37,579 nt of DNA, from assembly GCA_903970595.1 (NCBI GenBank), contig CAJCJI010000327.1, forward strand, positions 1 to 37,579, read 5' to 3'. Position numbers and translations under genes: made by a program. Positions 26,472 to 28,658 of the stretch are shown in pieces. Within the stretch, counting starts at the first letter, position 1; the number at the start of each line of letters is the position of its first letter. The notes under the pieces were generated by a model. It saw only the letters and a program-made list of their open reading frames with translations, ran no database searches and was not told the origin of the DNA. The DNA comes from Verrucomicrobiota bacterium. Lineage in GTDB: Bacteria; Pseudomonadota; Gammaproteobacteria; Nevskiales; Nevskiaceae.

Positions 26472-26520
26472 GAGCGTAGGTGAGCAGGATTGCGCGCTGC
26501 GCTTATTGCGCCCTACGCTC
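26472..26520. repeat. Intergenic inverted repeat with ATAAGCG-type motif
   Basis: GAGCGTAGG (26472-26480) is exactly complementary to CCTACGCTC (26512-26520). The interior, with GATTGCGCGCTGCGCTTATTGCGCC, is the kind of sequence that recurs between genes in many beta- and gammaproteobacteria. It marks the left edge of the lower-GC region. Confidence 0.6.
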
Positions 26521-26521
26521 G

Positions 26522-26711
26522 CTAATCCGTTTTGCTTCTGGTGTCACCCAAGCCACCGCGGTCTTCGGCAGCATCCTTGAGCATCTGCCGAATTCTGGAT
26601 GTCATCAAGGGCTCCACCGCTGAGCACCACTTCGATTCCATGCAGGCGCAGATGCTCCGCGACAATGCCTGCAAGTTCTTCGACCGTAGTATCCGCGGTG
26701 ATCCTTCTCAT
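26522..26711 (-). pseudogene. Truncated nucleotidyltransferase-like partner gene
   Basis: Begins with ATG at 26711 inside the stop of the winged-helix gene (ATGA overlap), the usual coupling of a two-gene cassette. The first 34 codons (MRRITADTTVEELAGIVAEH and then GIEVVLSGGA) match the N-terminus of nucleotidyltransferase-fold proteins that accompany this type of regulator, ending exactly at the start of their hydrophobic-Gly-Gly motif. The frame then changes to unrelated residues. In another frame the last 27 codons (MTSRIRQMLKDAAEDRGG, stop at 26522-26524) look like a genuine C-terminus. The central catalytic part, normally some 150-200 residues, is missing, so an internal deletion with frame change has destroyed the gene. 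Family naming is inference. Confidence 0.65.
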
Positions 26712-27034
26712 AGCGGCTTGCCGACTCTCCGCGGCCGGCGGCGCTGCATGAACCAACGGTCCTTCTCGGCTTGAGGGGTCAGGTCGATTCCTTTCTGCAA
26801 AAGAGCCGCAAGCTCCTTGCGGAACGCATATCGGGGATTGAATTCAAAAACGCGCGTGCGGCCATACTCCCGGTTCACCAGCACGTATTCCTGCTCCAGG
26901 CGCACCAGTTGCTTGTAGACCATGCTTTGGGGGATCTGATACGTGCGGGCAATCTCACGCGAGTATCCACTGCCGTAGTTCTGAATGAACATCAGCACTT
27001 TTTCCGCAGTCTCATTTCCAAATGCGCCGATCAT
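26708..27034 (-). CDS. Winged-helix transcriptional regulator of a two-gene cassette
   Basis: A 108-residue winged HTH protein. Residues about 5-75 form the wHTH: ETAEKVLMFIQNYGSGYSREIA, IPQSMVYKQLVRLEQEYVL as the recognition helix region, then a wing with GRTRVFEFNPRY. The C-terminus is basic, ending RRRPRRVGKPL, a tail seen in small wHTH proteins paired with nucleotidyltransferase-like genes. By analogy with AbiE-type systems it would act as the antitoxin or repressor. A perfect palindrome lies 18 bases upstream of the start, a likely autoregulatory site. Its partner downstream is a remnant, so only the regulator may remain functional. Composition is less GC-rich than the host genes. Confidence 0.85.
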   Translation of the reverse strand: MIGAFGNETAEKVLMFIQNYGSGYSREIARTYQIPQSMVYKQLVRLEQEYVLVNREYGRTRVFEFNPRYAFRKELAALLQKGIDLTPQAEKDRWFMQRRRPRRVGKPL

Positions 27035-27425
27035 GATCTAAATAGTAGTTCATATGACATATATAGTATGTCATATTCCGAACAAAATCCAAGGTTTGCT
27101 TTTAGCTTGTATCGCAGAGATAGGGGGCAGGCTTCATCTGCCCGCGCGGATTAGTCAACGGTGGGCACGGGGTTCGGCCGTTGCCCACCTTTGCTGCAAT
27201 GCTTGGAGCCGCTGGACGGGCGAAGGTCAGCAGCGCAAAGTAAAATCAAAAGTCCGAGCGTCAATGATTGCAGGCAGCCGCAATGAGACGTTGAACGTCC
27301 GCGATCGGCCCGTTGCTGCCAGTTGCGCATGGCGGCTTTCGGATAGGCTAACGAAGTGTCGCTTAGGTAACAGATAGCGGTAGGCAAAACCAACAACGTC
27401 CAACAGCCTCGACCATGCTGCCCCA
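27035..27425. other. Intergenic segment with hairpins, no gene
   Basis: 391 bases without a supported coding frame. It holds the palindrome at 27052-27076, a hairpin GGGCAG (27125-27130) / CTGCCC (27138-27143), a stronger hairpin GGTGGGCACGG (27160-27170) / CCGTTGCCCACC (27178-27189) with one bulge followed by TTTG, and a short palindrome GACGTT-G-AACGTC (27287-27299). The rest looks like non-coding or eroded accessory DNA. Confidence 0.6.
27052..27076. promoter_or_regulatory. Perfect palindromic operator upstream of the winged-helix gene
   Basis: ATATGACATA (27052-27061) and TATGTCATAT (27067-27076) are exact inverted copies around a 5-base spacer TATAG. The site is AT-rich, overlaps possible -10 sequences on the minus strand, and sits 18 bases before the winged-helix start, as expected for autoregulation. 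Confidence 0.65.
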
Positions 27426-28112
27426 ATGACTACGTATTCGGAAATGACCGCGGAGCATATAAATCTCCGCGTGTATGGTGGACGCTCCCCGATCGAAAGC
27501 GTCGCGCTTTCTCGTGCCTCATTTCAAAGCTGTCACGTAGGACTGTCGTCCGATAAGAAGGAGCGTGCAGTCTTCAGAGATATCTCGCTTAGTAAGTGCA
27601 AGCACGGGGCCTCTTTTATTCACGGGGCTGTACTTGAAAGAGTTGTTATTACCGATCTGACCGGCGGTGGGCGCGTGCCAACCTTTTTGTGGGGGTGCTT
27701 GTACTCTCAGGTGATTTTGAAAGGCCCAATCTCGGGGCTTATGTTTCGCTGGCAGGTGGCCTCGGACGACGAGCGTCTGAGCAGAGAATTTGTAGAGCAG
27801 GCGGCAAGCTACTACAAGTCAGTACCCTTTGCGTTAGATATCACTGAGGCGAAGTTCACCACGTTTGATGCCCTTCTAGGTATCCCGCCAAGCTTGATTA
27901 AGCGCGATGTCGAAACGCAGTTCGTGCTGTTGCGTGAGCGTATTGAGGCCATAAAGAACGCTGGTCAATCGACTATTTGGCGCATTGTTGCTCAATCCTT
28001 GAATCTAAGCCCCCTGCCCGGTGTGGTGATAGTCCTCGGAAAGCGAGATACAAAACACGCACTGCACCTGAAGGAGGCGCAGACCTTGCGCGCGATGGGC
28101 ATTCTGCAGTGA
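27426..28112 (+). CDS. Hypothetical protein in low-GC region
   Basis: A 228-residue ORF I do not recognise. No signal peptide or transmembrane helix is clear. Residues about 25-85 show a rough five-residue periodicity with central F, L or I (RASFQ, AVFRD, ISLSK, SFIHG, AVLER, VVITD), reminiscent of pentapeptide-repeat or other beta-helix proteins, but weak. The C-terminal half is mixed alpha/beta with VETQFVLLRERIEAIKNAG and VVIVLGKRD. Codon use includes AGA, TTA, ATA and many A/T-ending codons, unlike the neighbours, which points to transfer. No good ribosome site precedes ATG 27426; ATG 27444 with GGAA is an alternative. Coding status is likely but not certain. Confidence 0.6.
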   Translation: MTTYSEMTAEHINLRVYGGRSPIESVALSRASFQSCHVGLSSDKKERAVFRDISLSKCKHGASFIHGAVLERVVITDLTGGGRVPTFLWGCLYSQVILKGPISGLMFRWQVASDDERLSREFVEQAASYYKSVPFALDITEAKFTTFDALLGIPPSLIKRDVETQFVLLRERIEAIKNAGQSTIWRIVAQSLNLSPLPGVVIVLGKRDTKHALHLKEAQTLRAMGILQ

Positions 28113-28658
28113 AGCACTTGCGGACTATGTACTATGCATCTCCCACGGGCCAACACTGACCTTCCCCTGAGCTTCCGGACAGGACTCGAACGTTCGCATT
28201 CAGGCAACAAGAGTGAGGCAGCGAACTTCCACTCGTGGCACAGACCACTCATCCTTTGGCGACGTCGGAATACTCGCCTCAAATAATCTCTATCGGAAGC
28301 CAAGCACGCGGTACCCCTCAAGCACCCCGAGTGTTTTCATTCGCAAAAACAGGCTTCGAACTCCTTGCTCAAACTACGGAAATTCTGGTTACCGATCGCT
28401 CCAACGATCATTCGGATTCCGGCTCCCTGTACGCCAGCGAACCTCCGCGAACCTTGACGGCCCTCATCGTCGTCCACGGACCTCCGCGAACCATTGATTT
28501 TCATTTTCGTCCATGCGTAACACCACCGAAAACCTGTCACGCATGTAACGCATGGTGAAAACAGGCCGCGTTGAATCCTCATCCAGCGGAAAAATCCCCC
28601 TTACCCGGTGTCGCTGGGCGGGGGCTGTCTTACAGGGAGAGCGGAGCTTGCAGGCAGC
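28113..28658. other. Intergenic segment with decayed frame and direct repeats
   Basis: About 546 bases with no intact gene that I can support. On the minus strand one frame stays open from 28582 to 27992 except for a single TGA at 28337-28339, which could be a decayed gene. ACCTCCGCGAACC occurs twice (28441-28453 and 28480-28492). Near 28510-28560 GCGTAAC and GTAACGC motifs recur. These repeats could mark the edge of a former mobile element; no integrase, tRNA or insertion sequence is visible. Confidence 0.5.

Follow-up and report, generated by a model that had tools for sequence, protein, structure and literature searches.

The cassette at 26544-27034 (minus strand) of contig CAJCJI010000327.1 (assembly GCA_903970595.1, Nevskiaceae by its GTDB lineage) consists of an intact winged-helix gene and a broken second gene. 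We read this locus as an ordinary relic, a two-gene cassette that was acquired horizontally and is now decaying, and whose remaining regulator most likely has no selected role; we put the probability of this reading at roughly 70%. Positions are those of the 37,579-nt stretch of the contig, referred to here as the window (Table 1). The locus draws attention to an unnamed, small family of gene pairs that occurs on viral contigs and on plasmids of Leptospira, Bdellovibrio and Campylobacterota. Since members of this family often lose the enzyme but retain the regulator, intact and orphaned states can be compared cleanly within one family.

Table 1. Features of the cassette and its leader in the window, and the loci with loss of the partner gene.
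Feature	Position	Strand	Basis
Winged-helix regulator, 108 aa, intact, MIGAFGNETAEK...RRRPRRVGKPL	26708..27034	-	ORF, phrog_18520, 12-homologue alignment, AlphaFold
Nucleotidyltransferase-like partner, N-terminal remnant MRRITADTTVEELAGIVAEHLRLHGIEVVLSGGA, 34 codons	26610..26711	-	Partner profile, shuffle test
Out-of-family continuation, 21 residues to TGA (26546-26544)	26544..26609	-	Translation; partner profile without match
C-terminal tail of the original prediction, ...SRIRQMLKDAAEDRGGLGDTRSKTD, stop 26524-26522	26522..26606	-	Score matched by 213/1000 shuffles
Perfect 10-bp inverted repeat with 5-bp spacer, ATATGACATA CTATA TATGTCATAT (minus strand)	27051..27075	.	Predicted operator
Eight cases of partner loss: window, L002, L005, L012 clade, L017, L039, L040, L046			Profile classification

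The regulator matches the PHROGs family phrog_18520 with an E value of 7e-18 over residues 3-107 of its 108 residues. It has one winged-helix domain followed by a short basic tail (RRRPRRVGKPL). In the 12-homologue alignment it retains almost all conserved positions and lacks one residue near the N-terminus. The AlphaFold model (pLDDT 83) is nearest to the solved folds of AF1382, CzrA/SmtB and the centromere-binding AspA. Pfam, NCBIfam and PADLOC gave general winged-helix matches only; none of the PADLOC matches was convincing over the full length, and that to PDC-M05A (E 1e-7) extends over residues 12-86 only, the winged helix. The closest relative of the regulator, from a genome of the same family (L017), is identical at 62 of 108 residues, and no close relative was found. 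A search of phage records with the regulator and a distant DNA search for the cassette among plasmids were both without match.

The end of the regulator frame (...RVGKPL-TGA) overlaps the start of the second frame by ATGA (26711-26708). The remnant encoded by this second frame aligns with the partner profile over profile positions 1-38, at an E value of about 1e-5. Its summed alignment score against intact N-termini is 454, a value reached by none of 1000 shuffles (164 ± 19), and the original prediction that the second gene has the N-terminus of the partner up to VVLSGGA was thereby confirmed. Homology to the partner family ends just after motif I (VLSGGA). Beyond GGA the frame no longer resembles the family, and it ends at 26544, so that the complete partner motifs, GGx14DhD and KDRL, are missing, and neither the rest of the partner nor another copy was found elsewhere in the assembly. 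The second gene is a truncation after motif I, and its catalytic middle is gone as had been predicted. With the aspartate metal site and the downstream motifs lost, the enzyme is dead in the genome of the window.

It had also been proposed that the second gene jumps from its N-terminus to a C-terminal-looking tail in another frame, as expected for an internal deletion. The tail scored 138 against eight intact C-termini, which lies within the range of its own shuffles (129 ± 12, with 213 of 1000 as good), and the partner profile gave no match over the tail frame. The stop of the tail moreover coincides with the edge of the dispersed repeat at 26494-26524. As a C-terminus of the partner, the tail is therefore no better than chance. 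Alignment to intact cassettes thus bore out the N-terminal end of homology, but the C-terminal end of the supposed deletion did not rise above chance, and what the data give is a truncation after motif I, without support for an internal deletion. Because C-termini vary so much in the partner family, a deletion that spared the tail may still be compatible with the data. The repeat that ends at the stop of the tail is short, REP-like and common to congeners.

The assembly is fragmented (534 contigs, 86.9% completeness), and the cassette has dispersed repeats to its left and right. Both features would suit an assembly artefact near 26600-26610, with an intact partner present in the strain itself. 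Yet the break is ~80 bp away from the nearest repeat found, no part of the missing partner sequence was found in another contig, and similar breaks are seen on complete plasmids of other species. We consider such an artefact very unlikely.

Intact pairs with the same gene order, overlapping genes and the same N-terminus occur in unrelated bacteria, in agreement with the predicted cassette of a winged-helix gene and a nucleotidyltransferase-like gene of which the second has collapsed. The intact cassette encodes a winged-helix protein of ~110 aa and, overlapping with it, a nucleotidyltransferase-like enzyme of ~180 aa. The regulator comes first and the partner second, with a short overlap in most of the pairs. 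The intact partners are 176-211 aa long and contain the motifs GGx14D[LI]D and [KM]DRL...Q.A-type. Such pairs were identified in three genomes of the same order, one genome of the same class, a Haliea MAG, a Bdellovibrio plasmid, plasmids of Sulfurimonas and Sulfurospirillum, several Leptospira plasmids and three viral contigs. This architecture is rare and patchy, found in about a dozen separate lineages (including Halieaceae and Campylobacterota).

Intact partners match phrog_13263 with E values of 4e-18 to 1e-40 over 160 residues; both this family and phrog_18520 are labelled 'unknown function' in PHROGs. Pfam, NCBIfam and PADLOC gave no family membership for the partner. The best hint from Pfam, at a cut-off of E 0.1, is DUF2204 'nucleotidyl transferase' (E 0.0019, three of eight partners), and DUF5959 was matched by one of the eight. 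Sequence comparison of the partner with solved structures gave nothing beyond E 0.37, and the structural model of the partner has a pLDDT of 70, with the lowest values around the motif loop. Judged from the profile matches, the locus in the window is a member of the wHTH-NTase family phrog_18520 plus phrog_13263 that has lost most of its partner. Another relic, in this case of the partner, was observed in a congener (G010), where a 110-aa ORF (L035:1369-1701) overlaps the end of a helicase-like gene and contains only the C-terminal part of a related nucleotidyltransferase (positions 118-165, E 1e-10).

The cassette is found in a GC dip (56% compared to 65.5% for the window), inside a low-GC stretch (52-57%) from ~26.5 to 28.4 kb. 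The regulator is absent from all 17 sampled congeners. A clean empty site was not found in the genus, where a homolog of the left neighbour was present in only one of the 17 congeners (38% identity). Because the regulator is absent from these congeners, the GC content dips and dispersed repeats adjoin the cassette, it is most likely a horizontal import that has since decayed.

Several other elements were observed around the cassette. Two short dispersed repeats lie upstream of the regulator; the one at 27125-27189 recurs in several congeners, and the one at 27193-27252 occurs at no fewer than six places (at least) in the window's own genome. A further dispersed repeat at 28373-28608 has some 30 copies in the genome (74-94% identity, on separate contigs) and no Rfam match, and its strongly conserved core at ~28439-28560 (CATGCGTAACAGCACCAAAAACCTGTTACGCATGTAACGCATGG) contains an inverted repeat. 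On contig C489, the 27193-27252 repeat and the 28373-28608 element are ~590 bp apart with different intervening DNA. The low-GC stretch also holds a 228-aa ORF (27426-28112, plus strand), for which the Pfam search was without match. An Rfam search of the window gave no match.

The inverted repeat in the leader is positioned at -42 to -17 relative to the start of the regulator (P 0.005 against dinucleotide shuffles). Several homologous loci also have dyads in their leaders, individually for L003, L007 and L029, and with the window left out the combined P across the homologous loci is 0.004. As leader dyads are found both in the window and at homologous loci, the dyad is likely to be the autoregulatory operator of the regulator. 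A scan for sigma-70 promoters showed nothing at the set threshold.

The orphaned regulator might also have been co-opted to control other genes, for instance the ORF at 27426-28112. Its DNA-binding fold is intact, and the strong dyad lies between the regulator and this divergent ORF. However, the dyad is just upstream of the regulator, as seen for the homologous loci, and ~350 bp from the ORF, and within the locus nothing connects it to another gene. Co-option is thus improbable.

Eight cases, to all appearance separate, have an intact regulator whose partner is absent or broken (Table 1). It is missing or broken in L002 (same order) and L017 (same family), and in Parahaliea maris (L005) the homology to the partner ends after position 55. 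On the rep_cluster_216 plasmids of L. interrogans the partner is broken by frameshifts, in L. weilii transposase genes follow after partner position 51, in L. kirschneri the break in the partner follows position 86, and a plasmid of L. noguchii has a partner frameshift near position 148. The reverse case is seen in a single strain, L. noguchii IP1512017, on its plasmids p2 and p3 (L036 and L037), where the regulator is frameshifted near position 82 and the partner is intact. This represents either a sequencing error or a partner that is tolerated without an intact regulator.

According to the original prediction, the regulator would act as an orphan antitoxin or anti-addiction protein. In such a role, selection would keep it for neutralizing or repressing cognate cassettes that arrive on plasmids or phages. 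Several features agree with this: the regulator frame and the dyad are intact after the loss of the enzyme, regulators that outlast their partner outnumber the reverse by eight cases to one, and intact cassettes occur on plasmids and viral contigs. There is also precedent, as orphan antitoxins are common in other toxin-antitoxin systems and antitoxins with orphan copies neutralize toxins in assays (PMC7192599). However, the 8:1 asymmetry, although suggestive, is not significant (P 0.10) when it is taken into account that the partner is 1.7 times longer, and most loci in the count came from searches that used the regulator as query, which biases the sampling towards regulators. The asymmetry was therefore rejected as evidence for a toxin. 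A strict toxin would in addition forbid an intact partner beside a frameshifted regulator as in L. noguchii IP1512017, unless that sequence is wrong.

The selection acting on the regulator could be compared in Leptospira. Regulators with intact partners have a between-species dN/dS of about 0.04 (L013-L038), with synonymous sites near saturation. The orphaned regulators of 11 L. interrogans plasmids with a broken partner have seven non-synonymous and no synonymous polymorphisms. The chance that all seven are non-synonymous is ~1e-6 for an omega of 0.05, 0.002 for an omega of 0.2 and 0.17 under neutrality, in a test that covers seven sites and in which within-species polymorphism (segregating mildly harmful changes) inflates omega. 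The pattern points to relaxed constraint on the orphaned L. interrogans regulator with no sign of purifying selection, and it speaks against the proposed anti-addiction role. This first comparison of intact and orphaned states argues that the orphans are relics and not protective modules.

Taken together, a relic under relaxed constraint accounts for the data better than an anti-addiction protein maintained by selection, and an orphan antitoxin at this locus seems unlikely. A broader version is highly doubtful: here the family as a whole would be a true toxin-antitoxin or defence system that repeatedly loses its enzyme, while the kept regulator protects the host from incoming cognate cassettes. 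Some points go against the relic reading: the regulator retains almost all conserved positions together with a perfect dyad, which would also fit a gene in use, and the selection test comes from another genome, that of Leptospira, with its seven sites.

For the decaying relic we propose the following course of events. In the intact state, the enzyme would transfer nucleotides like the AbiEii/MenT-type toxins and would be held in check by the regulator, which would bind the dyad and repress its own promoter. After import of the cassette, everything behind motif I of the partner would have been lost. The remaining self-regulated winged-helix gene would still be open because the loss of the partner is too recent for decay.

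Among known families, the regulator of the window resembles phrog_18520 over its full length, whereas most of the phrog_13263 member is missing. The small nucleotidyltransferases of the ANT(2'')-Ia, LnuA and TM1012 type are similar in size to the partner and resemble the nucleotidyltransferase-like fold of its model. The likeness is weak: comparison of the model with ANT(2'')-Ia gave a Z of 6.8 over 130 residues (rmsd 6.8), and that with MenT1 (8an5) a Z of 6.0 for 148 aligned residues at an rmsd of 7.1; the structure comparison tool rates Z values under 8 as common. The identity to the small nucleotidyltransferases is however 10-13%, and the partner model is of low confidence (pLDDT 70). To our knowledge, enzymes of this type have no coupled winged-helix regulator.

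Modules of two genes, one of them for a small and mobile nucleotidyltransferase, are also known from the MNT-HEPN system (MntA-HepT; PMC2701414), but in the cassette the nucleotidyltransferase-like enzyme is paired with a winged-helix protein and not with HEPN. On the L. interrogans plasmids (L041-L044 and L069-L074), an MNT/HepT-like pair is found further downstream of the broken cassette and a Phd/PIN pair before it. The broken cassette is here surrounded by a cluster of toxin-antitoxin-like modules.

Both AbiEi-AbiEii and MenA-MenT are two-gene operons in which a winged-helix regulator is followed by a nucleotidyltransferase and the promoter contains inverted repeats (PMC3985639; PMC7319586). 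The cassette has the same two-gene layout, an hGG...DhD motif and promoter inverted repeats. It differs from AbiEi in that its regulator (~110 aa) has one winged-helix domain and no C-terminal antitoxin domain. The motif spacing of the partner is x14 and not x15 as in AbiE/DUF1814, the motif II arginine of DUF1814 (four residues before the first aspartate) is Y or F in all eight partners, and in motif IV the +DxxD is not conserved, the partners having a W.D.Q-type motif instead. None of the eight intact partners matched Pfam DUF1814 at E 0.1, and the AbiEii match of the partner in PADLOC was negligible (E 0.025). Because the DUF1814 hallmarks that were checked (the motif II arginine, motif IV and the two-domain antitoxin) were not found, we do not file the cassette as a member of AbiE, although by analogy with the shared layout, motifs I and II and promoter repeats it may work like AbiE and MenAT.
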